Below are positions 6,156-32,959 of a stretch of 64,000 nt of DNA, piece by piece. The stretch lies in NCBI RefSeq assembly GCF_900105985.1, contig NZ_FNUB01000005.1:2542001-2606000 (forward strand), in the 5' to 3' direction. The first letter of the stretch is position 1. Every line of letters starts with the position of its first letter. Position numbers and translations under genes: made by a program. The stretch comes from Tenacibaculum sp. MAR_2010_89 (GTDB lineage Bacteria > Bacteroidota > Bacteroidia > Flavobacteriales > Flavobacteriaceae). Under the pieces are notes generated by a model, which saw only the letters and a list, made by a program, of their open reading frames with translations, made no database searches and was not told the origin of the DNA.

Positions 6156-8543
6156 TTAATTCCTATTGCTTCTATTAGCACTTCTATTTTTGTCTGAAGG
6201 TTTTTGATTAAATTTATAAACAAAACTTAGACTAAATCTCTGAGCATTTCTATTTCTTATTTGATTTATTTTATAATTACTTCCTACAATATTTTCTCTA
6301 ACCTTACTACTATTAAATGGATTTGAAATATTTAATATAAGATTACCATTATTTTTAAATAAACTTTTACTAACTGCAAAGTTCATATAAGTTATTGGTA
6401 ATGTAGTAGTTTGTACATTTACTCTTTTTCCAATATGATACATTCTTGTTTGTAGCCTTACCCCTTTTGGTATTTGTATACTTGTTGAAAGATTTACAAA
6501 CCAAGTTTTATCAGAAATAGTTGCATCTGAAGAATTTATAATTCCTGTTTGTTTATAATTATAAGCATTAAAATCTCCCGAAAAGCGTAACCACTTTAAT
6601 GGATTATATGACCCAGAAAGCTCAAAACCATAGCGTTTTTCATTTTCTAAATTAATTGGAGATTGAACAAATACACCTTGAGAATCTTCAACAGTTTCAT
6701 ACTGAAAAACATCTTTTGTATCAGAATAATAAAGAGATGGACTCAATCTAAATTTCTTTTTTCTATAGTTAAAAGATAGTTCAAATGAATCTGTATAACT
6801 TGGTTGTAACAAAGGATTACCAGTAAAGCGTGCTGTAAAATCTTTTAACTCCAAAAAGGGATTTAATTGCCACAAAGAAGGTCTTCTAATTCTTTTACTA
6901 TAACTAAGTTGCCCTGATAAGTTATTTTTAAACTCATACCCAATAGTTGCTGAAGGAAATAAATTCGTATAATTATTTTTTAAATTTAATTGTTTAATTT
7001 CACTACCTATAGATACTTTTGTTGCTTCTAAACGCAAACCGAATTGAAAATTAAATTTATTAATTTTAGTATTATATTGAGTGTAAGCTGCAATTATCTT
7101 CTCTTTATAATTTAATTTATTATTGATCCCATTAATAATTTCAAAACTTCCATTTTTTAATTCTTCAGCTAAAAATTCATTTACAATTTTTCTATTTTCA
7201 TACTTTCCTCCAAACTCTAAATGCCCTTTTTTTCCAGTAGTAGTTGTGTAATCAGTTTGAATGGTAATATCATCAGTATTTGTTATACCACTAGTTTGAA
7301 TTGTTGCTATTGGAGCTTTTATTGGATAGGTTTGTTCAGTTTCCAAATTCCAAATTTTATTACTGTTCCAAAAGTCGTATTGAAAATCTATAGTGAATTT
7401 AGTGTTACTCGAATCGAATTCTTTAGTGTAATTGGCTTCTAATTGATTATAATCTCTTTTTTCTTTTGAATTTCCAAGGGTGGAAATTGAGTTTTTAATA
7501 TTCATAGATGTTGAAATATCATAATCTAATGATGTTGTATCAGTATCTTCAGTTTCATTCCTGTAATAAGCTAGAGTTATCGTGTTCTGTGCATTTAAAT
7601 AATAATCGGTTCCAAAATAAAATAACTTCCCATCATCATGTCTATTTTCATCTTCATTTTGAGTTAAATATGTTGTAACTCCATTTTTTATTGTTTCCTG
7701 CTTTTTTGAATAATCTCCTTCATAATTTGTATAACGAATTCCTAAGTTTGTAAAAAAATTAAACTTTTTAGTTTTGAAATTCACATTTCCTAAAGCTCTA
7801 TAATCATCTGGAATTCCTACTACCAACCGTACCTGACCATTTAAACCTGATTTTCTATTTTTCTTTAGAATTATATTAATAATACCAGCTCCACCTGAAG
7901 CATCATACTTTGCTGAAGGATTTGTTATTACCTCTATTTTTTCTATAACATCTGCAGATAACTGCTCTAATGCTTGCGTCTGAGTTAAACCTGATCTTCT
8001 TCCATTAATTAAAATTTGAACATTTGAATTTCCTCGTAAACTTATAGTACCATTAGGGCTTACATTAACGGAAGGAACATTGTTAAGAACATCTGTTGCA
8101 ACTCCTCCTTGTGTAGTAATGTCTTTACCTACCCTAAATACTTTTTTACCCAATTTTAAAGAAACTTCAGACGCTTCTCCTTTTACAATAACCTCTTCTA
8201 ATGTCTTAGAGTCTTCTTTCAGTGCAATACTACCTAGATCAATGCTTTTTTTATTATCAGAAATTTTTATTGATTTTTCTATAGAAATGAAACCTATATA
8301 TTGAATTTCTAAAAAATACTCACCTTTATTTAATTTAGTAAAAACAAAATTTCCTCTTTCTTCAGTTACAGTTCCTTCAATAATTTCTTTTTTAATATTT
8401 TTTAATACAACTGTAGCATAGGGTAAAGGTTCATTTATACTGTCTGTTATTATACCTGATATTTGTCCTATGCCGGTATTTTTTTGAGCATAAATTGAAA
8501 AACTAATAAACAAAAAACTTAAAAACGTAATAAGTAACTTCAT
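6156..8543 (-). CDS. TonB-dependent outer-membrane receptor, CarboxypepD_reg type
   Basis: 795 residues. Signal peptide MKLLITFLSFLFISFSIYA, a carboxypeptidase-regulatory-like beta sandwich (about 28-110; GQISGIITDSINEPLPYATV), a plug domain (about 125-225; VSLRGNSNVQILINGRRSGL, ASGGAGIINIILKK) and a long beta-barrel ending RFSLSFVYKF plus a basic tail. This matches the outer-membrane beta-barrel family of Bacteroidota rather than SusC. The cargo cannot be told. It is divergent from a LytS/LytTR two-component system, with a direct repeat between them oriented toward this gene, so it is a plausible target of that system. Confidence 0.85.
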   Translation of the reverse strand: MKLLITFLSFLFISFSIYAQKNTGIGQISGIITDSINEPLPYATVVLKNIKKEIIEGTVTEERGNFVFTKLNKGEYFLEIQYIGFISIEKSIKISDNKKSIDLGSIALKEDSKTLEEVIVKGEASEVSLKLGKKVFRVGKDITTQGGVATDVLNNVPSVNVSPNGTISLRGNSNVQILINGRRSGLTQTQALEQLSADVIEKIEVITNPSAKYDASGGAGIINIILKKNRKSGLNGQVRLVVGIPDDYRALGNVNFKTKKFNFFTNLGIRYTNYEGDYSKKQETIKNGVTTYLTQNEDENRHDDGKLFYFGTDYYLNAQNTITLAYYRNETEDTDTTSLDYDISTSMNIKNSISTLGNSKEKRDYNQLEANYTKEFDSSNTKFTIDFQYDFWNSNKIWNLETEQTYPIKAPIATIQTSGITNTDDITIQTDYTTTTGKKGHLEFGGKYENRKIVNEFLAEELKNGSFEIINGINNKLNYKEKIIAAYTQYNTKINKFNFQFGLRLEATKVSIGSEIKQLNLKNNYTNLFPSATIGYEFKNNLSGQLSYSKRIRRPSLWQLNPFLELKDFTARFTGNPLLQPSYTDSFELSFNYRKKKFRLSPSLYYSDTKDVFQYETVEDSQGVFVQSPINLENEKRYGFELSGSYNPLKWLRFSGDFNAYNYKQTGIINSSDATISDKTWFVNLSTSIQIPKGVRLQTRMYHIGKRVNVQTTTLPITYMNFAVSKSLFKNNGNLILNISNPFNSSKVRENIVGSNYKINQIRNRNAQRFSLSFVYKFNQKPSDKNRSANRSNRN

Positions 8544-8610
8544 AACTTGAATATTTTAATTTTCTTCAAAATTCAATACTTTAACTACTTCTTTTTTATA
8601 TTCTTATGTA

Positions 8611-8640
8611 AACTGCTCTATTGTTTTGTCAACTACTCTA
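8611..8640 (-). promoter_or_regulatory. candidate LytTR-type direct repeat
   Basis: On the + strand AACTGCTCTA (8611-8620) and AACTACTCTA (8631-8640) match at nine of ten positions with a 20-base period. On the minus strand they read TAGAGTAGTT and TAGAGCAGTT. LytTR regulators usually bind two imperfect direct repeats about two helical turns apart. The site lies 68-97 bases before the TonB-receptor start and just before the divergent sensor gene. Assignment to the neighbouring regulator is inference. Confidence 0.45.
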
Positions 8641-8685
8641 AAAACACCTTTATTTACTATATTTTTACAGTAAGAAATATGTCAT

Positions 8686-10380
8686 ATGAAAAAAGCACTT
8701 TACATAATTATCTTTCTTCTTTTTAGCTCATGCTATCATACAAAAAATGATAGTAGATATATTATGACAGATGTCTCGGAAACTTTATTTAAAATTGGAG
8801 ACAATAGTTTATGGGCTAAAAAAAATTATGATGACAGCGATTGGAGTACACAAAAGATAATTCCAAAAAAGGATAAAATATTTTGGGCTAGAAAAGAAAT
8901 TAATATCACAAAATCTCCAGATTCTCTTCAGGTAATTGGTTTAGGTATTCATTCTTTTGGTGCCTACGAAGTTTATTGGGATGGAATTTTTATTGGTAGA
9001 AATGGGCTGCCTGGAAATGAACTTAAAAGAGAAAAAATAGGGACAACCAATGAAAGTTTTATTATACCCAATAGCTTACTTAATAAAGGTAATCATTCTA
9101 TAGCCTTAAGAATGTCTCAACTTTATGAAAAAAAAGATACACGAAATGTTTATACGTATATATTAGAATATGATTACCTAATAACATATAAATTAAAAGA
9201 TACTATTTATATAAACATTTTAGCAGGAGCATTTTTGCTCACTTGTATTTACTATCTTTTTTTATTCATTAATGATAAAAAACAATATACAATGTTGCTA
9301 TTCAGTTTATCTAGCCTTTTGTTTTTTCTCTTAATTATTATGGAATATATTAAGTTTTACATACCTATCCATTATTCAAGTTTCATACTTCGTTTAAAAG
9401 TAATTGGTGTCTTAACCTTATTAATTTCTTTTTTGGTTCCTTATTATTTTTCTATTCAGTTTCCTTTCAAACATTTTAAAAAACTTATAGTAGTGTATGC
9501 TATTTTCTTATTGTTAATCTATAGGTTTTATTCTCATTCATTTGATTTAACAGCTCTTTTTCTATCACAGATGATGTGGCTATCTTCAACTATGATAATT
9601 TCTTATGCTATCTATAAAAAGCAAAAAAGTGCTATTATTATTTTAATAGGTTTGATATTAAGTTTTATCATTTATAAAATTTCAATTTATGATGTTAGTT
9701 TATTTGTTAGTTTTAGTATCATTTCTTTATGTATGTTTTATTTATTGTCTGTAAAACTAAAAGATCAAAGAGTAGCCTTTGAGTATTCAATAGCTGAGTC
9801 TACACGATTGAAATATGAATTACTTAAAAAGAATATTCAACCTCACTTTTTAATGAATACATTAACATCTTTAATAGATTGGGTAGAAGAATCTCCTGAA
9901 AAAGGTGTGGAATTTATTGAAGCACTAGCAGAAGAATTTGATGTATTAAATCAAGTTGAAAATGAAAAATTAATTCCTATATCACAAGAAATAAAGCTAT
10001 GTAAAAGTCATTTAAATGTTATGAAATATAGAAAAGAAGTCGATTATATTTGGGAAGATGAAGGCGTATTAAATGATAAAAACCAAACCATTCCTCCTGC
10101 AGTTATTCACACACTTCTTGAGAATGGAATTACACACTGCTCTCCTTTAAATAACAATACTATGAAATTTAAATTAAGTGTAAAATCAACTAATGAAAAT
10201 TTAATATATACATTTATAACCTATGGAGAAGTACGAAATAAAATTAAAAATAAGACTGGAGGTACAGGGTTTAAATATGTAAAAGCAAGATTAACTGAAA
10301 GCTATGGTCAATCATGGGAGTTTACCTCTAACTCTATAAATAATGGTTGGGAAAATGTAATTAAAATAAACAACATATGA
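8686..10380 (+). CDS. lipoprotein-anchored LytS-family sensor histidine kinase
   Basis: 564 residues. A lipoprotein-like signal (LLFSSC, Cys16) precedes a periplasmic jelly-roll-like domain (about 30-165; WAKKNYDDSDW and GAYEVYWDGIFIGRNG), then about seven membrane helices (175-360, 7TM-DISM-like) and a LytS-type kinase. The phospho-acceptor motif is QPHFLMNTL with His387 and the N-box is LLENGITH (Asn480). The nucleotide-binding G-box is degenerate: TYGEVRNK stands where a DNGxG motif is expected, though a glycine-rich TGGTGFKYVKARL follows. It overlaps the regulator by ATGA, so the two are coupled. Ligand unknown; jelly-roll domains often bind sugars. Confidence 0.8.
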   Translation: MKKALYIIIFLLFSSCYHTKNDSRYIMTDVSETLFKIGDNSLWAKKNYDDSDWSTQKIIPKKDKIFWARKEINITKSPDSLQVIGLGIHSFGAYEVYWDGIFIGRNGLPGNELKREKIGTTNESFIIPNSLLNKGNHSIALRMSQLYEKKDTRNVYTYILEYDYLITYKLKDTIYINILAGAFLLTCIYYLFLFINDKKQYTMLLFSLSSLLFFLLIIMEYIKFYIPIHYSSFILRLKVIGVLTLLISFLVPYYFSIQFPFKHFKKLIVVYAIFLLLIYRFYSHSFDLTALFLSQMMWLSSTMIISYAIYKKQKSAIIILIGLILSFIIYKISIYDVSLFVSFSIISLCMFYLLSVKLKDQRVAFEYSIAESTRLKYELLKKNIQPHFLMNTLTSLIDWVEESPEKGVEFIEALAEEFDVLNQVENEKLIPISQEIKLCKSHLNVMKYRKEVDYIWEDEGVLNDKNQTIPPAVIHTLLENGITHCSPLNNNTMKFKLSVKSTNENLIYTFITYGEVRNKIKNKTGGTGFKYVKARLTESYGQSWEFTSNSINNGWENVIKINNI

Positions 10381-11075
10381 GGATTTTAATTATTGAAGAT
10401 GAATCAAGAATTGCAAAAAGAATTGAACGTATGACCAAAGAATTCTTTTTAAATACTTTAGAAAATATAACTTGTTTGTACTCATTACCTGAAGGACTAG
10501 ACTATATCAAAAAAAACAAACTTGATTTAGTTTTACTTGATTTGAATTTAAACGGTGAAAGTGGATTTAACATCTTAAAAAATAGTGTATCAGAAGATTT
10601 TCATACAATTATTATTTCTGCAAATAAACATGAAGCTTTAACTGCTTTTGAATACGGAGTATTAGATTTTATACCTAAACCGTTCAATAAATCTAGGTTA
10701 GATCAAGCTTTTAATAGAATTATTAAAAAAGAAGGGGTTACTACTGAAAATTTACAGTTTTTAGCAATAAAAAAAAGAAATGGGATTCAGTTAATTAATA
10801 TTAATGAAGTAATCTACATAAAGGGAGCAGGTGTATACACTGAGGTTTACCTAACAAATGGAGAAAAAGAGCTACATGATAAATCTTTAGAAAAACTTTC
10901 TCAACTATTACCTCAAACCTTTTACCGCATTCATAAATCTTATTTGGTTAAAATTATAGAGATTAAGGAAATAATAATACAGTCAGGAAGCAAATACTCT
11001 ATTGAGTTAAAAAACAATGATATCCTACCTGTAGGTAGAACAAGGTATAAAACATTAAAGGAATCATTATTATAA
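10377..11075 (+). CDS. LytTR-family response regulator
   Basis: 232 residues: a receiver domain (1-115) with the acidic pocket EDES and the phospho-acceptor Asp55 in LVLLDLNLNG, then a LytTR DNA-binding domain (about 130-232; FLAIKKRNGIQLININEVIYIKGAGVY is its start, split here only for description, and FYRIHKSYLVKI its core). It takes phosphate from the overlapping LytS-like kinase and should bind paired direct repeats. Such a repeat lies in the divergent promoter region at 8611-8640. Confidence 0.9.
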   Translation: MRILIIEDESRIAKRIERMTKEFFLNTLENITCLYSLPEGLDYIKKNKLDLVLLDLNLNGESGFNILKNSVSEDFHTIIISANKHEALTAFEYGVLDFIPKPFNKSRLDQAFNRIIKKEGVTTENLQFLAIKKRNGIQLININEVIYIKGAGVYTEVYLTNGEKELHDKSLEKLSQLLPQTFYRIHKSYLVKIIEIKEIIIQSGSKYSIELKNNDILPVGRTRYKTLKESLL

Positions 11076-11110
11076 AAAAACCTATTTCAGTTTTGAAATA
11101 GGTTTTTTTA
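11074..11110. terminator. bidirectional terminator between LytTR gene and fabG
   Basis: AAAAAACCTATTTCA and TGAAATAGGTTTTTT form a long stem with a small loop, starting at the last bases of the regulator gene. T-runs flank it on both strands, so it also serves the convergent fabG gene. Confidence 0.85.
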
Positions 11111-11149
11111 TAAAATTTTATTACAAATTGATAATTTGCAAATTTTATA

Positions 11150-11896
11150 CTATGTAAGCATTCCTCCATCAACTGATAATGTTTGCCCTGTAATATACGC
11201 ACTCATATCAGATGCTAAAAACACGCAAGCATTTGCTATATCTTTAGGACTTCCTCCTCTTTTTAAAGGAATTTCATTACGCCAGCCTTCAACTACTTTC
11301 TCGTCTAACTTAGCAGTCATTTCAGTTTCAATAAAACCAGGAGCAACTACATTACTTCTTATATTTCTAGAACCTAACTCTAATGCTACAGATTTAGAAA
11401 AACCTAAAATACCAGCTTTAGAAGCAGCATAATTTGCCTGCCCTGCATTTCCTTTTAAACCTACAACAGAACTCATATTAATAATTGAGCCTGCACGTTG
11501 TTTCATCATTGGACGAATTACAGCTTTTGTTAAATTAAAAACAGACTTTAAATTTACTTGTATAACCTTATCAAAATCATCTTCAGAAATACGCATTAAT
11601 AAATTATCTTTAGTAATACCTGCATTATTTACCAAAATATCTATTGTTCCAAATTCCTTTAAAACATCTTTAGCTAATTCTTGAGCTGCATCAAATTCAG
11701 CTGCATTAGATTGGTATCCTATAGCTTTTACACCTAAATCTGTTAATTCTTTTTCTAATGCTTTAGCAGCATCTACAGATGAACTGTACGTGAAAGCAAC
11801 ATTAGCTCCTTGTGCTGCAAATTCTAAGGCAATTCCTCTCCCAATACCTCTGGTTGCTCCAGTTATAATTGCTGTTTTATTTTCTAAAAGTTTCAT
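11150..11896 (-). CDS. fabG: 3-oxoacyl-[acyl-carrier-protein] reductase
   Basis: 248 residues, a classical short-chain dehydrogenase. It reduces 3-oxoacyl-ACP with NADPH in fatty-acid elongation. Visible are the cofactor motif TGATRGIGRGIA near the N-terminus, NNAGIT, the catalytic Ser in INMSSVVGLKGN, and YAASKAG with catalytic Tyr and Lys. The C-terminus ends in YITGQTLSVDGGMLT, the usual FabG ending. The length and motif spacing match FabG rather than a general sugar dehydrogenase. It is a single gene between two terminators. Confidence 0.92.
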   Translation of the reverse strand: MKLLENKTAIITGATRGIGRGIALEFAAQGANVAFTYSSSVDAAKALEKELTDLGVKAIGYQSNAAEFDAAQELAKDVLKEFGTIDILVNNAGITKDNLLMRISEDDFDKVIQVNLKSVFNLTKAVIRPMMKQRAGSIINMSSVVGLKGNAGQANYAASKAGILGFSKSVALELGSRNIRSNVVAPGFIETEMTAKLDEKVVEGWRNEIPLKRGGSPKDIANACVFLASDMSAYITGQTLSVDGGMLT

Positions 11897-11992
11897 TTAT
11901 TAGTTGTTTTAACTATAGCAAATATACTATAATACTCTTTAATCTATAATTTTCAAGTTTAAAAATATCACTTTGTAATTTCTCTTTTAGCT

Positions 11993-22321: not shown

Positions 22322-23869
22322 ATGCGAAATATAGATATACTTTGGGTTGATGATGAAATAGATTTACTAAAACCACACATTTTATTTTTAGAAAAGAAAA
22401 ATTATAAAGTAACATCGTGTACTAACGGTACAGATGCTATAGACTTAGTAAACGAAGAAAATTTTGACATTGTTTTTTTAGATGAAAATATGCCAGGAAT
22501 TACTGGTTTAGAAACTTTAGCTGCTATTAAACAAATAAACGCAAATCTTCCAGTAGTTATGATTACTAAAAGTGAAGAAGAGTATATTATGGAAGAAGCT
22601 ATAGGTTCAAAAATTGCTGATTATCTAATTAAACCCGTGAACCCTAATCAAATACTATTAAGCTTAAAAAAGAATTTAGATCATTCTCGATTAGTATCAG
22701 AAAAAACTACTTCTAGTTACCAACAAGAATTTAGGAAAATCTCTATGGATTTAGCTATGGTTAATACATATGATGACTGGACTGATTTATACAAAAAACT
22801 TGTACATTGGGAACTTGAACTTGAAAACATTAACGATACTGGAATGCTTGAAATTTTAGAATCGCAAAAAACAGAAGCTAATACTCAGTTTTTCAAATTT
22901 ATTAAGAAGAACTATCAGGATTGGTTAACTAATGATGATAAACCCACATTTTCTCACACACTTTTTAAAGATTACATTATACCTAATTTAAGTGAAGACC
23001 AAGGTGTTTTATGGGTTGTAATTGATAATCTTCGTTATGATCAATATCGAGTGTTAGAACCATTTATCAACAACTATTATAAAAAAGAAGAAGAACATTC
23101 ATACTATAGTATTTTACCAACTGCTACTCAATATGCAAGAAATGCAATATTTTCAGGTTTAATGCCTTCTGAGATGGAAAAATTACATCCTGAATTTTGG
23201 AAAAATGATACTGATGAAGGTGGTAAAAACCTATATGAATCTGACTTTTTAACATCACAAATTCAACGTTTAAACTTATCATTACAGCACGAATACTACA
23301 AAATTGTTTCTTTAAAAAGTGGTAAAGATTTAGCTGATAATTATAATGGAACTAAACAAAATGATTTGACTGTGATAGTTTATAATTTTGTAGACATGCT
23401 TTCACATGCAAAAACAGAAATGGAAGTTATAAAAGAACTTGCAGGTGACGATAAAGCTTATAGATCATTAACTGTAAGTTGGTTCAAAAATTCACCTTTA
23501 TATGAAATCATTCAAAAAGCACAAAAATTAGGACAAAAGTTAATTATTACTACTGATCATGGTACTATTAACTCTAAAACTCCTACCAAAGTAATTGGAG
23601 ATAAAAATATTAGTTCTAACTTACGTTATAAAACAGGAAGAAGCTTAAGCTATGAAGATAAAGATGTTTTTGCTGTAAAAAATCCAAAAGATATTTTTTT
23701 ACCATCTGTAGCTATAAACAGTCCTTTTATTTTCGCTAAAGAGGATTTATTTTTTGCTTATCCTAATAACTATAATCACTTTGTTAAATATTATAAAAAT
23801 ACGTATCAACATGGTGGTATCTCATTAGAAGAAATAATTATACCTTGTGGTGTTTACAATCCTAAATAA
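22322..23869 (+). CDS. porX: PorX, response regulator with PglZ-like phosphoesterase domain
   Basis: 515 residues. An N-terminal receiver domain (1-120) with Asp54 in VFLDENMPG is followed by a helical linker and an alkaline-phosphatase-superfamily PglZ domain (about 205-515). Metal and catalytic candidates are Asp235 (WVVIDNLRYD), the Thr pair in LPTATQYARN (267 and 269) and ITTDHGT. PorX is the known regulator of the type IX secretion system, acting with kinase PorY and an ECF sigma factor; its phosphoesterase domain has been reported to act on oligonucleotides. PorY is not in the window. The gene leads a short + strand run of genes. Confidence 0.92.
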   Translation: MRNIDILWVDDEIDLLKPHILFLEKKNYKVTSCTNGTDAIDLVNEENFDIVFLDENMPGITGLETLAAIKQINANLPVVMITKSEEEYIMEEAIGSKIADYLIKPVNPNQILLSLKKNLDHSRLVSEKTTSSYQQEFRKISMDLAMVNTYDDWTDLYKKLVHWELELENINDTGMLEILESQKTEANTQFFKFIKKNYQDWLTNDDKPTFSHTLFKDYIIPNLSEDQGVLWVVIDNLRYDQYRVLEPFINNYYKKEEEHSYYSILPTATQYARNAIFSGLMPSEMEKLHPEFWKNDTDEGGKNLYESDFLTSQIQRLNLSLQHEYYKIVSLKSGKDLADNYNGTKQNDLTVIVYNFVDMLSHAKTEMEVIKELAGDDKAYRSLTVSWFKNSPLYEIIQKAQKLGQKLIITTDHGTINSKTPTKVIGDKNISSNLRYKTGRSLSYEDKDVFAVKNPKDIFLPSVAINSPFIFAKEDLFFAYPNNYNHFVKYYKNTYQHGGISLEEIIIPCGVYNPK

Positions 23870-26102: not shown

Positions 26103-27599
26103 CTAATTATTAATATTATAACTTGGTAAATTAAATTCAAAAACACTTCCTTTATTTACATAACTATTAACAGTTATTTCTGTTTTGTGAAGTTCCATTA
26201 TTTTTTTAACGATAGCTAAACCTAAACCAATACCTTGTTCCTTATTGGTTAATGTAGCCTTCATGTGTCGATCAAAAATTAATTCTTGATCATGCTCATA
26301 AATACCTGGTCCATTATCTTTAATTTTAACTGAAACATAACCTTGCTTATTAGATAAGTATATTGTTATTTTACCATTAATTGGTGTAAACTTTATCGCA
26401 TTATCCAATATATTCTGTATTGCTCTTTCAATTAATTTGACATCTGCCATTACCGGTGGTAATGATGTTTTAACAATCATAGATATTTTTATATTCTTGT
26501 TTTTTGCTAATATCTCATATCGTTGTTTAATATCTAACATTAAATTAGTCAGGTAAAATGGCTCTAAATTTATTTCAATTTGTTTTATTTCAAGTTTAGA
26601 ATACTCAAATAGTTGATTTACTAAGTTGGATAAATAACAAGCACTCTTTTCTATTATATCCATAAACTCTTTTCTATCATTAATAGCAATACTCCCTTCT
26701 TTTATTTTTAAAGTTTCTATATACCCTCTAATAGCTGTTAAAGGAGTTCTTAAATCATGTGAAACATTAGCTATTAGTTCTTTTCTAAAACTATTTATAG
26801 ACTCTTTTTCTTTAATATTATGCGATATCGTTTGAGCCATGTTATTATATGTAACAGCTAAAACAGATAAATCAGAATTATATGGGTTGGGTATTCTACT
26901 ACACAAATCTCCCTCCTTAAACTTATTTACATGATGAATGATTGTACGTAAACTTTTAGTTAAAAACCAAATACTTAACCAACCTATGAAAACAGCAAAA
27001 ATCATAGTTAATAAAGTTGTTCTAGTACATAACTTAAAAAAATAGTCGGTAAATAGTGAATCACAAATCTGTTGAAATTTTTGACTTGCCAATATTATAT
27101 ATATATAACCTTCCTTATTATTTTTCACAAAATGAGCTGCTGAAAATATTTTTTGTTTCCCAGCTTCTCTAGGGTCATCCCCCAATATATACTGCTCTTT
27201 ATTTTGTATAAACTTTTTTACAGGTAATAAACTAATCTTCTTTAATGGCTTATTCGGATTCGTATGATCTAATACTACTGAATACAAAATTTCTCCAGAT
27301 TCATTTAGTAAATACACTTCTATAGCTCTATTAACAGCCATCATATCATGCATTATATCGCCAAATAAACTTTTATTTACAGAGCCATCATCTAAAAAAG
27401 GAGAATTCTTTTTGAACTTCTCTTCTATTAAATGATTAGCAATATTAGCATTAAGTCTTTGAGTAGTTTCGCTATAAAACTTTTTAACTGAGAAAAACGT
27501 TAAAGAAATATACACTATTCCTACAATAAAAATTAGTGTTAAAAACGTAAATCCTAATTTTAAGATTAATTTATTCGATACTGCTTTGTGATTTTTCAT
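26103..27599 (-). CDS. OmpR-type system sensor histidine kinase
   Basis: 498 residues. One membrane helix at about 12-34, a periplasmic sensor domain (35-185), a second helix (about 193-213), a HAMP-like linker, then HisKA with His281 in NVSHDLRTPLTAIRG and a complete HATPase (N-box IQNILDNAIKF, G1 KIKDNGPGIYEHD, G2 GIGLGLAIVKKIM). The gene starts inside the regulator gene (29-base overlap). It probably controls the divergent adenylation/reductase cluster. The signal is unknown. Confidence 0.9.
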   Translation of the reverse strand: MKNHKAVSNKLILKLGFTFLTLIFIVGIVYISLTFFSVKKFYSETTQRLNANIANHLIEEKFKKNSPFLDDGSVNKSLFGDIMHDMMAVNRAIEVYLLNESGEILYSVVLDHTNPNKPLKKISLLPVKKFIQNKEQYILGDDPREAGKQKIFSAAHFVKNNKEGYIYIILASQKFQQICDSLFTDYFFKLCTRTTLLTMIFAVFIGWLSIWFLTKSLRTIIHHVNKFKEGDLCSRIPNPYNSDLSVLAVTYNNMAQTISHNIKEKESINSFRKELIANVSHDLRTPLTAIRGYIETLKIKEGSIAINDRKEFMDIIEKSACYLSNLVNQLFEYSKLEIKQIEINLEPFYLTNLMLDIKQRYEILAKNKNIKISMIVKTSLPPVMADVKLIERAIQNILDNAIKFTPINGKITIYLSNKQGYVSVKIKDNGPGIYEHDQELIFDRHMKATLTNKEQGIGLGLAIVKKIMELHKTEITVNSYVNKGSVFEFNLPSYNINN

Positions 27600-28311
27600 G
27601 GGAGGGTATCTTTAACTCATCGTTAAACTTATACCCTACCCCCCAAGTAGTTAATATAAATTTAGGGGTTACCATATTTTCTTCTATTTTACCTCTCAAT
27701 CTATTTATGTGTGAATTTACTGTATGCCTATAACCATCAAAGTCATATCCCCATACTAATTCTAATAATTTCTCTCTACTATAAACTTTACCTGCATTTG
27801 ACGCCATTAAAACAAGTAAGTCAAACTCTATTGGTGATAAGTTTATTTCTTTGTTTTTTAAAAGAACCTTGCGCTTATCTATATTTATAGATAACTCTTT
27901 AAATGTTAATTCATTGTTAGATTCAATTATTTTTTTGGTTCCCGAAGTATTTTCAAACCTCCTAGTTACAGCTTTCACTCTAGCAATAAATTCTCTTACG
28001 CTAAAAGGTTTTGTTATATAATCATCAGCTCCTAACTCTAAACTTAATACCTTATCTAGTTCCTCTGTTTTTGCAGTTAGCATTATTATTGGAGTTTGCT
28101 TTACTAACCTAATTTGTTTGCAAACCTCTATTCCATCAATATTAGGTAACGTAATATCTAATATTATTAATGTAAAATCATCATTTAAAGCTTTCTCTAA
28201 ACCTACATCTCCTTTAAAAGCCTTAATAATAGTATAATTAAGGTCTATTAAATGAAATTCTAACAATTTAGAAATTGCAACATCATCTTCAATAATAAGT
28301 ACTTTTTTCAT
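27571..28311 (-). CDS. OmpR-family response regulator
   Basis: 246 residues. Receiver domain with EDD near the N-terminus and phospho-acceptor Asp52 in LIILDITLPNIDG, the Lys switch in DYITKPFSVRE, and a winged-helix DNA-binding domain from about 140 (LSPIEFDLLVLMASN, VWGYDFDGYRHTVNSHINRL). It overlaps the kinase gene. OmpR-family regulators bind direct repeats about 10-11 bases apart; four TGAT boxes of 11-base period lie 57-93 bases before its start. Confidence 0.93.
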   Translation of the reverse strand: MKKVLIIEDDVAISKLLEFHLIDLNYTIIKAFKGDVGLEKALNDDFTLIILDITLPNIDGIEVCKQIRLVKQTPIIMLTAKTEELDKVLSLELGADDYITKPFSVREFIARVKAVTRRFENTSGTKKIIESNNELTFKELSINIDKRKVLLKNKEINLSPIEFDLLVLMASNAGKVYSREKLLELVWGYDFDGYRHTVNSHINRLRGKIEENMVTPKFILTTWGVGYKFNDELKIPSHEKSQSSIE

Positions 28312-28366: not shown

Positions 28367-28408
28367 GTGATATAAAAATGATTTTTCTGTGATACTTCCG
28401 TGATACTT
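28367..28408. promoter_or_regulatory. four TGAT boxes at 11-bp period, candidate OmpR-type operator
   Basis: TGAT occurs at 28368, 28379, 28390 and 28401, an exact 11-base spacing. The last two units are identical over nine bases (GTGATACTT); the first reads GTGATATAA and the second ATGATTTTT. The array lies between the divergent regulator gene and the adenylation gene, one helical turn per repeat, as OmpR-family dimers require. Confidence 0.65.
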
Positions 28409-28483
28409 ATAAAAGTTCTTTACCTCATTAAAATTAGCTGCAGCTTTTTTATACATCATAAATACTAACTTAAAAACTATTTT

Positions 28484-30118
28484 ATGAAAAAATCAGCTTT
28501 ATCACATAGTTCTAATTCTTTAGAATTATATAAACAAAGCAAAGAGGTAAACCAAATAAATAGAGAGTTTAACTTTAATGCTATTAGTAATTTGTCCCCT
28601 GAAAATCAAAACCTATTTATAGAATATGGTATTGCAAAAAAAACAACATCTACATTTAAAAGCGTTCTCAATGCTTTTGAATATTGGTTAGGAAAAACTC
28701 CTAATAATGTAGCTGCTTCATTTTTAAATGATACAATAACCTATAAAGAATTAGATAATGAAGCTACCATTTTAGCTCTTATTTTAAAACAAAAAGGAAT
28801 TAAATCTGGAGACACTATTGGTCTGTACACACATCGGTCTATTCATTTTCTAATTGGTATTGTTGCCGCACTTAAATTAGGGGCAATATATGTGCCTCAA
28901 GACCCACGGATTGTACCACCAAAAATGTTGAAAAACATTAGTGAATTAAGTAATCAAAAAATGATACTAACCTTTTCAAATTACAAAGAAAGTGTATCTT
29001 TTTTTTCTACTAAACAAACTATTCTAATTGATAAAGAATTAAAAAAGAAGATTTACAGAAATTTATATGGCAACATAAAACTTATTAATTATAAGAATGA
29101 TAATATTAATAAAATTTGCTTCATTTTATTTACATCTGGTACAACAGGGCTACCTAATGGAGTTCAAGTAACTCATAAAAACTTATGTAATATTCTTTTT
29201 AACTCTCCAGGTAACTTAGGAATAAAACCAGGTACAAAAGTAGCACAATTGCTAAATATTTCCTTTGATATGGCTGCTTGGGAAGTTTTAGGCTGCCTAG
29301 GTAATGGAGGCACTTTATTAATAAGAGATAAAGATATTAACGAAACAGCTCAAAAAGCTAATGTAATTATCGCTACACCAACTGTTTTAACTACAATTAA
29401 CTATAAAAAATGTAAAAATATAGAAACTGTGGCTGTTGCTGGAGAACCTTGTCCAGTTATACTTGCAAACACTTGGTCAAGAATTTGTAATTTTTACAAC
29501 TCTTGTGGCCCAACAGAAACTACTATTGTGAATACAATGAAAAAATGTATTCCAGGAACAAGTGAATTATCAATTGGTAAACCAACTCCTAATAACACTG
29601 TTTATATTTTAAATGAAGATATGAAACCAACAAAAATTGGTGAGGTTGGTATTATGTGGGCTGGTGGAGATTGCGTTACAAAAGGCTATTTAAATAACGA
29701 TATTTTAAATGCTAAAAAATATTTAGATGACCCTTTTTTGTCAAAAAAAAGTAAAATGTTTAATACTGGTGATTTAGGAAAATGGAATGAGGCTGGAGAA
29801 TTAATTCATTATGGAAGAGTTGATGATCAAGTAAAGATTAAAGGCTTTAGAGTAGAACTAGATGCTATTTCAAAAATAATTGAAGGTTTTAAAGAAGTTA
29901 AAAGAGCAGTAACATTAAAACATCAAAACTTTCTAGTTTCATTTATTGGATTACAAGCAAAAACTAAAACTAATCTTACTGAGCTTATAAAAAAAGCAAT
30001 AGAGAAAGAACTACCATATTACTATGTACCCAATGAATTTATCTTTTTAAATGAACTTCCTAAAACTTCTAGAGGGAAAATTGATAAAAGGGAGTTAAAA
30101 AAATCTTTAAATAAATAA
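28484..30118 (+). CDS. stand-alone amino-acid adenylation enzyme (NRPS-type A domain without carrier)
   Basis: 544 residues. An 55-residue N-terminal extension precedes a full adenylation domain: A3 FTSGTTGLPNG (216-226; the usual Lys is Asn), A4 with Asp262 in ISFDMAAWEVLG, A5 CGPTE (341-345), A7 NTGDLG (427-432), A8 GRVDDQVKIKGFRVELD (444-460) and A10 with Lys532 in SRGKIDK. In NRPS domains the A4 aspartate holds the substrate amino group, so an amino-acid-like substrate is likely. There is no carrier or condensation domain, and none is nearby. Three bases separate it from a membrane reductase, which together resemble fungal TmpL. Confidence 0.8.
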   Translation: MKKSALSHSSNSLELYKQSKEVNQINREFNFNAISNLSPENQNLFIEYGIAKKTTSTFKSVLNAFEYWLGKTPNNVAASFLNDTITYKELDNEATILALILKQKGIKSGDTIGLYTHRSIHFLIGIVAALKLGAIYVPQDPRIVPPKMLKNISELSNQKMILTFSNYKESVSFFSTKQTILIDKELKKKIYRNLYGNIKLINYKNDNINKICFILFTSGTTGLPNGVQVTHKNLCNILFNSPGNLGIKPGTKVAQLLNISFDMAAWEVLGCLGNGGTLLIRDKDINETAQKANVIIATPTVLTTINYKKCKNIETVAVAGEPCPVILANTWSRICNFYNSCGPTETTIVNTMKKCIPGTSELSIGKPTPNNTVYILNEDMKPTKIGEVGIMWAGGDCVTKGYLNNDILNAKKYLDDPFLSKKSKMFNTGDLGKWNEAGELIHYGRVDDQVKIKGFRVELDAISKIIEGFKEVKRAVTLKHQNFLVSFIGLQAKTKTNLTELIKKAIEKELPYYYVPNEFIFLNELPKTSRGKIDKRELKKSLNK

Positions 30119-30121
30119 ATC

Positions 30122-31435
30122 ATGGAAAATATCATATTACCTCCAAAAAAAAGTTTTCTATATAGATTAGGAAAACATCCTTGGTTAATACCATATCATC
30201 GTTTATTTATACTTATTTCATTAATAAATATTGGTATTTTTATAAAGGCATATACCACTTGGAATTGGTTTAAAGCAGAAGGAATTGAAATTGATAAAAT
30301 AGCCCAGATAATTATATTCAATTTTGCCTTAGGAATTTTAATTAGACAACAATATGTTATTAATTTATTATTTAAGATCGCAACTAGTCCACCTAAAAAT
30401 TGGCCTTTATTTATAAGGAGAATTTGTGCTAAAGTATACCACTTTGGTGGCATACATAGTTCTTCCACATCAATGGGAACTCTTTGGTATTTAATTTTTG
30501 TAGGTTCACTATACTACCATTATTTAAATTATTTGCCAGGTGTTAATATTGAAATTATCATCATAACCACTATGATCTTGGCTCTATTAATTGTAATCAT
30601 TCTTATGGCTTTACCTCAAATTAGAGCAAAATACCATAATCAATTTGAATTAACTCATAGATTAGGTGGATGGACAGTGCTGATTTTATTTTGGGTACAA
30701 ATGTTTTTGTTTATTAATATTCAAAATACTCACAATACACTTTTTTACAGTTCTGATTTCTGGATATTAATCACTCTAACAATAAGCGTTATTTTACCTT
30801 GGTTACGACTTAAAAAAGTAGATATCGAAATAGTGAAACCTTCTAACCATGTAGCGCTTACATCTTTTAACTATGGGGTTACTCCTTTTGCAGGTTCATC
30901 TACTGCTTTAAGTAAAAACCCTTTATTAGAATGGCATTCTTTTGCTAATGTTCCTGCTCCTGATAAAGATGGATTTAGATTAACCATATCTAGAGCTGGA
31001 GATTGGACTGGTAACTTCATTTCTGATAAACCTGAAAAAATTTGGGTTAAAGGTATACCAACTGCTGGAGTTGGTAACGTAGATAAACTATTTAAAAAAA
31101 TTATTTGGGTTGCTACAGGAAGTGGAATAGGTCCTTGTATTCCACATTTACTATTAAATGAAACTCCATCCGTTCTTATTTGGGCTACAAGAAATCCAGA
31201 AAAAACATATGGTGAAAAATTAGTAAATGAAATTAAAGCAGTTCAACCTAATGCTATTATATGGGATACAGATGCTAATGGAAAACCCGATCTAGTTAAG
31301 CTTGCTTATAAAGCATATAGTGACTTTAAAGCTGAAGCTGTAATATGTATATCTAACCAAAAACTTACTCAAAAAGTTGTTCATAATATGGAATCTAGAG
31401 GAATTCCTGCTTATGGAGCTATTTGGGATTCTTAA
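30122..31435 (+). CDS. six-TM membrane protein with FAD/NAD(P) reductase domain, TmpA/TmpL-like
   Basis: 437 residues. Six membrane helices (about 28-45, 61-79, 119-138, 143-163, 180-200, 213-228) carry several histidines (His26, His107, His112, His133, His179) that could hold haem, though this is only a guess. The cytoplasmic half is ferredoxin-reductase-like: an FAD segment GFRLTISRAGDWTGNFI (284-300), a nucleotide loop WVATGSGIGPCIPHLL (329-344) and the end VVHNMESRGIPAYGAIWDS. This ending and the TSPPKNWPLFIRR loop match what I remember of fungal TmpA/TmpL proteins. It is coupled to the adenylation gene. Confidence 0.75.
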   Translation: MENIILPPKKSFLYRLGKHPWLIPYHRLFILISLINIGIFIKAYTTWNWFKAEGIEIDKIAQIIIFNFALGILIRQQYVINLLFKIATSPPKNWPLFIRRICAKVYHFGGIHSSSTSMGTLWYLIFVGSLYYHYLNYLPGVNIEIIIITTMILALLIVIILMALPQIRAKYHNQFELTHRLGGWTVLILFWVQMFLFINIQNTHNTLFYSSDFWILITLTISVILPWLRLKKVDIEIVKPSNHVALTSFNYGVTPFAGSSTALSKNPLLEWHSFANVPAPDKDGFRLTISRAGDWTGNFISDKPEKIWVKGIPTAGVGNVDKLFKKIIWVATGSGIGPCIPHLLLNETPSVLIWATRNPEKTYGEKLVNEIKAVQPNAIIWDTDANGKPDLVKLAYKAYSDFKAEAVICISNQKLTQKVVHNMESRGIPAYGAIWDS

Positions 31436-31458
31436 AAATTAATTTAAACATAATAAAA

Positions 31459-32241
31459 ATGAACGTACTATTTGAACAAATAGGAAGGGTTGTTGTTGCC
31501 AAGCTAAATCGACCTAGCGCATTAAATGCGTTAAATACTGAAACCATGTATGAGCTAATATCTAAACTAGAAAAATTTGATAAATCACCTTCAGTAGGCT
31601 GTATAATTATCACTGGAAGCGAAAATATTTTTTGTGCTGGTGCAGACATTAAAGAAATGGCATCTAAAAATTTTTCTCAAATGTTTGAAGAAGATTATTT
31701 TGGATATTGGGAAGTATTTTCAAAAATAAAAACCCCTATAATAGCTGCTGTTTCAGGCTACGCTCTTGGTGGAGGCTGCGAATTAGCAATGATGTGTGAT
31801 ACAATTCTTGCTTCAGAAAATGCAGTATTTGGTCAACCAGAAATAAAATTAGGAGTTATACCTGGTATTGGTGGTACTCAAAGGCTTACTTCCTTGGTAG
31901 GTAAATCTAAAGCTATGGACATTATCCTTTCAGGAAGAAATATTGAAGCTAAAGAAGCAGAGAACATTGGATTAGCTTCCAAAATTATTTCACAAAACAA
32001 CTTCTTAAACAAGGTCATAAAATACGCCCAAAACATTGCTAATTATTCTAAAACTGCATTAATAGCTTCGAAAGAAGCTATTAATCAATCATTAGAATGC
32101 AGTTTAAAAGATGGAATTGTATTTGAACGAAGAGTATTTCATTCTCTATTCAATACTCAAGATCAAAAAGAAGGAATGGATGCTTTTTTAGAAAAGCGAA
32201 TAGCAAATTTTAACTCAATTTATCAACCAATTAAAAAATAA
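31459..32241 (+). CDS. enoyl-CoA hydratase/isomerase family protein
   Basis: 260 residues from the ATG at 31459; 12 upstream in-frame codons look spurious. Crotonase fold with both catalytic glutamates of true hydratases in place: GGGCELAMMCD and FGQPEIKLGVIPGIGGTQRL. The oxyanion-hole segment is FCAGADIKEMA. It would hydrate a 2-enoyl-CoA or a related thioester. It follows the membrane reductase by 23 bases, so it belongs to the cluster, where the adenylation enzyme could supply an acyl-adenylate or CoA ester. It could also be an ordinary beta-oxidation enzyme. Confidence 0.88.
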   Translation: MNVLFEQIGRVVVAKLNRPSALNALNTETMYELISKLEKFDKSPSVGCIIITGSENIFCAGADIKEMASKNFSQMFEEDYFGYWEVFSKIKTPIIAAVSGYALGGGCELAMMCDTILASENAVFGQPEIKLGVIPGIGGTQRLTSLVGKSKAMDIILSGRNIEAKEAENIGLASKIISQNNFLNKVIKYAQNIANYSKTALIASKEAINQSLECSLKDGIVFERRVFHSLFNTQDQKEGMDAFLEKRIANFNSIYQPIKK

Positions 32242-32248
32242 CTTTACC

Positions 32249-32959
32249 ATGAAAAATTTAATAATATCATTTGTAGTACTTACTATATCTGTACTTAACA
32301 TTTACAGTCAAGAAGAAAAAGAAAATAAAACAAGTTTTGCAATTATGCCTATACATAATAGTGGCGCAGGATTTAATAATGTTTTCTTAGGATCACATCA
32401 AATAAAACCAAAAACAAATTTAACTTTTTATAGTGTTTTTTGGGTAAATCCATCTTTTGGTAATCAAGGTAAAGATTTATTTTTAGAAACTGGTATTGGT
32501 TTAGGCTACTCTTTAGCTAATAATAAGCTTTATTTAAACCCTAGCTTAGGTTTTGGTCATGGAAAGTTACTATCAGGTGCTGCTGAAACTAAAATTGCTG
32601 AAAGTATAATACCTAGTTTGTTTATGATTTATAATTCTGGTAGATTTGAATTTGAAGCATATACCGCTTATTATAAAAGTTTAAGAGGTGAAGGTAACTC
32701 ACAAGACTTAATGCTTAATTGGGTTATACCAGGGTTTAAAATTAATAAGAGTTTATCTATTGGAGGGTTTTATGAACATCTAGGTCAAACAAGAGCAGAT
32801 AGTGGAAATACAATTACCTTATACCAATACTTAGGTGCTTATATTAAAACTACTCTTAATAATGGTGTTTGGTTTAGATTCGCAGCTGGACCAAATATTT
32901 CTGGTGATCGTGTAAACTCAAAAGAATTTTATAAAATACAAGCTTTTATACCTATATAA
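32249..32959 (+). CDS. outer-membrane-type beta-barrel protein of unknown function
   Basis: 236 residues. Signal peptide (MKNLIISFVVLTISVLNIYSQ), then alternating aromatic and glycine-rich strands typical of a small beta-barrel or porin-like protein (YSVFWVNPSFGNQG, ETGIGLGYSLA, NPSLGFGHGKLLSG) with a final FYKIQAFIPI strand. I do not recognise a named family with confidence. It starts seven bases after the hydratase gene and is followed by a terminator, so it is the last gene of the four-gene cluster. An envelope component of that pathway is inference. Confidence 0.55.
   Translation: MKNLIISFVVLTISVLNIYSQEEKENKTSFAIMPIHNSGAGFNNVFLGSHQIKPKTNLTFYSVFWVNPSFGNQGKDLFLETGIGLGYSLANNKLYLNPSLGFGHGKLLSGAAETKIAESIIPSLFMIYNSGRFEFEAYTAYYKSLRGEGNSQDLMLNWVIPGFKINKSLSIGGFYEHLGQTRADSGNTITLYQYLGAYIKTTLNNGVWFRFAAGPNISGDRVNSKEFYKIQAFIPI

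Follow-up and report, generated by a model that had tools for sequence, protein, structure and literature searches.

A bacterial gene trio for a stand-alone adenylation enzyme, a membrane protein of predicted NADPH-oxidase fold and an enoyl-CoA hydratase resembles the fungal TmpB/TmpL system

The window analysed here, a stretch of 64,000 nucleotides from the 4.17-Mb genome of Tenacibaculum sp. MAR_2010_89 (contig NZ_FNUB01000005.1, positions 2,542,001 to 2,606,000), carries three adjacent genes for a stand-alone adenylation (A) enzyme of nonribosomal peptide synthetase (NRPS) type, a six-helix membrane protein with a domain for flavin adenine dinucleotide (FAD) and NAD(P)H, and an enoyl-coenzyme A (CoA) hydratase. 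A prediction made earlier from the sequence alone, referred to below as the original prediction, had seen in the first two genes a split counterpart of the fungal protein TmpL. The four reading frames that it named, those of the trio and of a DUF6733 protein, are all open, and the first two genes are indeed three bases apart (30119-30121); the hydratase starts at ATG 31459, not at TTG 31423. A response regulator and a histidine kinase are encoded divergently from the trio, 172 bp upstream. The features of the locus, by position in the window, are as follows.

26103..27599, minus strand: sensor histidine kinase of a two-component system (HisKA and HATPase_c), divergent from the trio
27571..28311, minus strand: OmpR-type response regulator (Response_reg and Trans_reg_C)
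28367..28410, plus strand: candidate operator with GTGATA boxes at 28367, 28389 and 28400 (spacing 22 and 11 bp)
28484..30118, plus strand: stand-alone NRPS-type adenylation enzyme of 544 amino acids (aa), without a carrier domain (AMP-binding and AMP-binding_C)
30122..31435, plus strand: six-helix membrane protein of 437 aa with an FAD/NAD(P)H domain and a predicted NADPH-oxidase fold (AlphaFold, Foldseek and profile)
31459..32241, plus strand: enoyl-CoA hydratase of 260 aa, the third core gene (ECH_1)
32249..32959, plus strand: DUF6733 protein with a signal-peptide-like start, judged by eye (PF20507)

When 84,980 species genomes were scanned with two peptide patterns, 352 encoded relatives of the membrane protein were found, and all counts over 80 given below refer to the best 80 of these 352, that is, to the closest ones. 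All 80 loci have an A domain directly upstream of the membrane gene (ended by contig edges in L042, L075 and L080), so the coupling of the two is not due to chance. A hydratase lies directly downstream in 77 (cut in L013), and two of the misses, L055 and L068, are on contigs that end 171 and 379 bases past the membrane gene. Co-occurrence of the first two genes elsewhere, on which the original prediction had staked itself, is therefore found in every close relative, a result limited by distant lone membrane proteins in Pantoea and cyanobacteria. The family is rare in whole-genome draws from four classes (1 of 369, 2 of 395, 9 of 394 and 1 of 291 genomes, each count including the genome at its centre, already known to carry the family). 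All nine new matches from these draws, one in the genus of the window and the other eight in the class of an actinomycete, and thus from two of the four draws, carry the whole trio; together with the 80 close relatives they rule out a chance neighbourhood. The unit comprises all three genes rather than the pair, and the pairing is nearly obligatory in the close relatives sampled.

By record title, the 80 loci belong to Bacteroidota (37), Pseudomonadota (20), Actinomycetota (13), Chloroflexota (9) and Cyanobacteriota (1), many of them metagenome bins; in the tree, the nearest named relatives of the window's membrane protein are those of Tenacibaculum. The A enzyme and the membrane protein form a single fused protein of 989-1045 residues in 19 of the 80 loci, and a quick method placed at least six changes of fusion state over the 80 scored rows of a tree in which 29 of 82 inner branches are weak. 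On this evidence the first two genes appear to have been fused or split repeatedly. Pairwise identities among the three proteins are correlated, most closely between A enzyme and membrane protein (r 0.86), followed by A enzyme and hydratase (0.71) and membrane protein and hydratase (0.65).

The original prediction had treated the hydratase as a gene that joins the pair; its place as a neighbour stands, its accessory role does not, given its presence in 77 of 80 relatives as a third core gene. It matches ECH_1 with an E value of 8.8e-78, and both catalytic glutamates are present in all 79 of the 80 rows that cover them. It resembles short-chain enoyl-CoA hydratases of the PRK05862 type, reaching 361 bits against a family cut-off of 396, and has both catalytic glutamates and full length in common with them, but is a separate paralogue tied to the trio. 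Enoyl-CoA hydratases are present in all 59 related genomes; within the three of these that hold the trio, the trio hydratase is 74-100% identical, whereas the other hydratases among the matches listed are at most 45% identical to the trio copy. This distinct paralogue rules out a housekeeping bystander.

Against Pfam, the A enzyme matches nothing above cut-off but AMP-binding (E 1.1e-59) and AMP-binding_C, and in the PDB it comes closest to linear gramicidin synthetase and gramicidin synthetase 1. It is a complete A domain of NRPS type, which bears out the prediction of a carrier-less amino-acid adenylation enzyme. Its score against TIGR01733, the amino-acid adenylation domain, is 292 bits, below the 317-bit cut-off; its ATP-binding motifs and catalytic lysine are intact by eye. 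Neither of the domains that accompany A domains in NRPS proteins, carrier and condensation, was found in the protein, the latter having been searched for by profile in the A protein only. The predicted absence of a carrier nearby was confirmed with the PP-binding profile, which has no match in the window and 23 in the genome, all elsewhere and the nearest about 1.3 Mb away. A strict carrier motif is likewise missing from the fetched flanks of 87 loci, except for one antisense chance match inside an A gene. A carrier encoded between the A and membrane genes was considered for loci with wider gaps and rejected; their A proteins are somewhat longer (632 aa in L022) and hold no strict carrier motif. 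Two large NRPS regions occur in the same genome, at C5 ~905000-928500 and 1211000-1261400, more than 1 Mb from the window, and the genome also has short carrier-bearing frames, such as one of 125 aa at C5:661525.

The substrate pocket of the window's A enzyme reads DMWTAASIVK, and that of the gramicidin/tyrocidine-type A domain PheA is DAWTIAAICK. Both have D235, W239, A301, I330 and K517; the window's enzyme differs in standing alone and in M236. The pattern DMWT(A/I)A(S/A/C/G)I(V/I)K fits all 82 readable rows (83 rows in total, of which L042 does not cover the pocket), and D235, M236, W239, A301, I330 and K517 are kept in every one of the 82. The stretch from D235 to position 322 spans 78 residues in trio A proteins, shorter than the 87 of PheA. 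Because the pocket is nearly fixed among A proteins that, outside the genus, are only 44-54% identical to the window's, the sequences imply a single substrate shared by trio A enzymes across phyla, most likely a large amino acid with an aromatic or hydrophobic side chain.

Searched singly, the membrane protein matches no Pfam family above cut-off. A profile built from 64 of its relatives matched NADPH oxidase 2 (NOX2) at E 2e-4 and DUOX1 at E 0.014 in the PDB, and Ferric_reduct is found in six of the 64 profile members at E values up to 1 (best 2.4e-5). The AlphaFold model, with a mean predicted local distance difference test (pLDDT) score of 91.8, shows six long helices followed by an FAD/NAD(P) domain, and the top five Foldseek matches are bacterial and mammalian NADPH oxidases (E 2.4e-12 to 1.7e-11). 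SpNOX was matched at E 2.4e-12 with TM scores of 0.56/0.60, DUOX1 at E 1.0e-11, and NOX2 at ranks 4-6 with TM scores by query of 0.56-0.63; the listed NOX and DUOX structures share 12-16% sequence identity with the membrane protein. Root-mean-square deviations are high, 7-10 Å for SpNOX and NOX2 (ranks 1-6) and 16 Å for DUOX1, so the orientation of the domains differs from that in NOX and DUOX.

Six residues, H112, H172, H179, R168, E176 and R180, are the same in all 87 rows. H179 aligns with H209 of NOX2, an inner haem ligand, over a stretch that by itself gives only 4 bits and is not significant. The outer haem positions, placed at 126 and 193 by spacing from the NOX2 residues, hold F or L in 81 of 87 rows with no histidine, and Q in 70 of 87 with H in 10, respectively. 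Of the features of an NADPH oxidase, the six helices and the FAD/NADPH dehydrogenase domain were found, the two histidine pairs for stacked haems were not, and our best guess is a protein with one inner haem. Its fold of six helices and an FAD/NADPH domain is common to NOX proteins and ferric reductases, with RxxxxxxFExxH preceding helix 5; unlike NOX, it is coupled in its close relatives with an A domain and, with few exceptions, also with a hydratase. The NAD(P) motif reads ATGSGIGP in 84 of 87 rows, the window having GSGIGP, and ATGAGIAP in three. The term flavoreductase in the original prediction is therefore too narrow: a six-helix FAD/NAD(P) protein stands, with the fold of an NADPH oxidase and outer haem ligands that are not conserved.

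These parts correspond to those of the fungal proteins as described in excerpts of the published accounts (PMC4804170, PMC2766074). TmpB of Aspergillus nidulans (989 residues), TmpL of Alternaria brassicicola and Aspergillus fumigatus (1025 residues) and ChNPS12 combine a PheA-like carrier-less A domain with six helices and an FAD/NAD(P) domain that bears GSGIGP; for TmpL the excerpts report this same order of domains and neither a thiolation nor a condensation domain (PMC2766074). For TmpB, pocket anchors D, W, G, I and K have been given and a hydrophobic amino acid proposed, and an enoyl-CoA hydratase gene adjoins A. nidulans tmpB (PMC4804170), as it does the membrane gene in bacteria, where it is the immediate operon neighbour. 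The marks of the TmpB type are found here as well, namely the pocket residues D, W, G, I and K, the coupling of an A domain with six helices plus an FAD/NAD(P) domain, and no carrier match. Together with the 19 fused relatives, the identical GSGIGP and the constant co-occurrence, they uphold the split TmpL-like architecture that had been predicted. The window differs from TmpB and TmpL in having two genes instead of one and bacterial two-component control, and its FAD site, RLTIS, is similar but not identical to the RLHFD of the fungal excerpts. Since the fusions have the length of the fungal proteins and GSGIGP and the hydratase neighbour are shared, common descent with the fungal system is likely. 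The core is a trio that fungi apparently have as well.

In A. nidulans, mutants are altered in sporulation (PMC4804170), and two fungi need TmpL in order to infect (PMC2766074); in the excerpted text the products of TmpA, TmpB and TmpL are still open (PMC4804170, PMC2766074). Bushley and Turgeon placed some bacterial stand-alone A domains, from Hahella and Salinispora, inside the fungal NPS12 clade and suggested that stand-alone A domains may act in trans; a neighbouring membrane gene is not mentioned in the excerpt (PMC2823734). As the original prediction had supposed, no function for the bacterial trio was found in the open-access literature searched.

A two-component system lies within 300 bp of the trio, with its kinase assigned to one sensor type, in 22 of the 80 loci and the window. 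Sixteen kinases were aligned, and the sensor is common to the window, three Tenacibaculum loci, L045 (cut), L048, L049, L051, L056, L060, L070 and L084; for ten further Tenacibaculum loci and L058 the assignment relies on sequence cluster and position only. Its motif, GDDPR...K(I/V)FSAA...GYIYV, is shared by trio-adjacent kinases in Lewinella and gammaproteobacteria. The kinase of L065 has the same sensor at a distance of 3.4 kb, those of L069 and L077 are of another type and that of L073 is unrelated; gene order differs from group to group. Of the 23 loci with this kinase type adjacent, the window included, 21 have GTGA-N7-GTGA upstream of the A gene (0.04 expected; misses L017 and L084), as do 6 of 55 other loci (0.07 expected), some of which (L065, L067, L069, L073 and L077) have a two-component gene nearby. 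The pattern was chosen after the sequences had been viewed, its expected counts come from doublet-keeping shuffles where the attempt succeeded, with three loci whose gene start is cut dropped, and the loci are not independent, since a single genus supplies 14 of the 23 and near-identical Vibrio another three. A fuller pattern occurs once in the 64 kb. A winged-helix response regulator and a direct-repeat operator upstream of its putative target, both read from sequence, are the features of OmpR-type regulation.

Within the genus, the sensor is found in exactly the three genomes with the trio and in none of the 33 without (36 genomes, some incomplete), and in Tenacibaculum the divergent two-component system is part of the trio unit. 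The idea that the kinase is a receptor dedicated to the trio's product is weakened by the same kinase type in two genomes without the trio, G037 and G048, where the operator motif adjoins lipoprotein-like genes. In L111 (~9764-11932) and L112 (~7440-10618), the same kinase type and an operator with 11-bp repeats stand by lipoprotein-like genes, one of them with RskA_C. It is possible that the two-component unit has several targets.

The fourth frame of the original prediction, the outer-membrane-type partner, is present here and matches PF20507 at E 2.1e-82. Its product is probably an outer-membrane protein, and its gene occurs in exactly the three trio genomes among the 59 related ones. Among the 80 loci it is restricted to Bacteroidota, in 35 of 37 (the other two ended by contig edges) against 0 of 43 elsewhere. 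In two gammaproteobacterial loci a Gcw_chp gene, of another family, takes its position.

A fourth core gene was sought among the 66 nearest flanking genes (65 of 91 listed genes plus L054:3970), after exclusion of 18 near-duplicate loci and DUF6733 and with two-component genes, the majority of those from Tenacibaculum and a number of short or doubtful frames left out; their families varied, and the idea was dropped. The commonest were Crp-like regulators (7, from Aquimarina-type loci), the DNA polymerase III clamp-loader (4, from one synteny group), catalase (2) and Gcw_chp (2). Individual cases include a Crp-like regulator divergent from a fused A-membrane gene in Aquimarina (L026, 5298-5948), a catalase-family gene right after the hydratase in a Pseudomonas locus (L087, 10242-11351) and, in a Chloroflexi bin, a thiolase-family gene that lies two genes upstream of the trio (L054, 3970-5163). 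In the metagenome-assembled genome of a member of the Chloroflexales (L053, 2-757 and 3602-4918), a partial second copy of the membrane gene, cut at the contig end, lies immediately upstream of a complete trio, and tandem duplication of the module is therefore possible. All three genes also occur on a 4.9-kb contig from human faeces deposited as an unverified bacteriophage (L134, MT838715.1); its longest DNA match among the fetched loci is the Pseudomonas locus L087, and it is probably mislabelled bacterial DNA. Among the lone membrane proteins, one on a Pantoea piersonii plasmid (L004, 48% identical) is about 8 kb from aerobactin-type siderophore genes, and on three cyanobacterial plasmids (L005, L006 and L007) the membrane gene is followed by that of a conserved protein of about 415 aa which looks, by eye, like an HlyD-type membrane-fusion protein. 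Elsewhere in the window, a response regulator fused to a PglZ domain is encoded at 22322-23869, the layout of PorX of the type IX secretion system. Anti-phage defence was considered and rejected, with no PADLOC match at E 0.01, and no RNA families were found at window positions 20000-42000.

Our preferred reading, which we hold tentatively and at somewhat less than even odds, is that the window encodes a bacterial version of the fungal TmpB/TmpL/NPS12 system divided over separate genes, a module of three enzymes whose proposed mechanism goes beyond the features read from sequence on which it builds: the three genes, the conservation of the trio, fusion and fission, the intact pocket, the hydratase residues, the NOX fold and the operator. 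The product of the trio is most likely one small compound derived from an amino acid and made without a carrier protein, by a chemistry that we infer as follows. The A enzyme would adenylate one large, probably aromatic, L-amino acid and, having no carrier, transfer it as an acyl group to CoA. The flavohaem protein, with NAD(P)H, FAD and one haem, would alter the redox state of this aminoacyl group on the inner side of the membrane; the likeliest change is a new alpha,beta double bond, although desaturation by this protein is a guess. The hydratase would then add water, and the resulting beta-oxidised derivative would be secreted as a small metabolite or signal, with the DUF6733 protein as a possible exit in Bacteroidota. 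Activation, oxidation and hydration in this order would mirror the first three steps of beta-oxidation. A wider proposal, which we regard as doubtful, is that bacteria and fungi share a carrier-less signal biosynthesis in which an A domain, a one-haem NOX relative and a hydratase would act at the inner membrane face, under two-component control in some bacteria and steering sporulation and oxidant tolerance in fungi.

Several observations weigh against the preferred reading. The hydratase is truly absent from L066, which has about 8 kb of downstream sequence, and is a more distant one (38-40%) in L033 and L076. Two Pantoea and three cyanobacterial plasmids carry lone membrane proteins, 28-48% identical, and no A or hydratase match was found in the flanks fetched from four of these five loci; in having no A domain, these plasmid-borne proteins resemble fungal TmpA. 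The stretch from the pocket D to position 322 spans 69 residues in TmpB by the numbering of the excerpted paper (PMC4804170) against 78 in 68 of 68 readable rows, and the fungal proteins were compared by published descriptions only. Pocket-code column 278 is ambiguous owing to a gap, and the non-significant alignment around H179 belongs here too. As for the chemistry, CoA is proposed as the acceptor solely because a hydratase is present. NRPS A domains normally load a carrier, and flavoproteins of the ferredoxin-NADP reductase (FNR) type usually deliver electrons rather than oxidise a substrate.

One alternative is a reductive route, in which electrons from NAD(P)H would pass through the flavohaem protein to turn the adenylate or CoA ester into an amino aldehyde or alcohol, with the hydratase acting later. 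The membrane protein does have an NAD(P)H-dependent FNR-type domain, and carrier-less activation makes reduction of an adenylate conceivable; the route is nonetheless unlikely, for it leaves the conserved CoA-dependent hydratase unexplained, and the known acyl reductases of NRPS-like enzymes are domains of the short-chain dehydrogenase/reductase type that act on a thioester, not through a haem pathway. In keeping with the NOX fold, the membrane protein might produce superoxide or peroxide, or reduce metals, with the A enzyme and hydratase supplying a ligand, cofactor or regulator, and a catalase-family gene is the nearest flanking gene in 2 of 66 cases, among them the one that follows the Pseudomonas hydratase. 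The outer-haem ligands that carry electrons across the membrane in NOX are, however, not conserved, which makes electron export doubtful and this explanation improbable.

The A enzyme could also serve an NRPS in trans by loading a carrier encoded elsewhere, the other two proteins tailoring the bound amino acid. The NRPS regions at C5:0.9 and 1.2 Mb and the short carrier-bearing frames fit such a role, as does the suggestion made for stand-alone A domains in the excerpt of Bushley and Turgeon (PMC2823734). We judge it decidedly unlikely, given the flanks of 87 loci without a strict carrier motif save for the chance match, the absence of PP-binding from the 25 commonest families of the 66 flanking genes, and fusions that tie the A domain to its membrane partner. 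A catabolic side branch, in which the trio would degrade a particular amino acid or derivative through CoA esters, would account for the beta-oxidation order of ligase, oxidoreductase and hydratase, for the likeness to short-chain enoyl-CoA hydratases and for the thiolase-family gene in the Chloroflexi bin. It seems quite improbable, since thiolase is not among the same 25 families, the distribution is rare and patchy, and the fungal mutants show developmental phenotypes in the excerpts available (PMC4804170).

Bacterial stand-alone A domains in the NPS12 clade were already known from the excerpted work of Bushley and Turgeon (PMC2823734). The trio, scattered over several bacterial phyla, offers a simple bacterial setting in which to learn what the TmpL/TmpB system makes, and it suggests that the hydratase is a core component, that the pocket hardly varies across several phyla, and that the A enzyme and its membrane partner are separable. 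With the proteins separate in bacteria, ATP-pyrophosphate (PPi) exchange, flavin and haem spectroscopy and stepwise reconstitution are straightforward. If the reading as a split TmpB/TmpL/NPS12 module is true, it would mean that the NADPH-oxidase fold is used in the synthesis of a small molecule.

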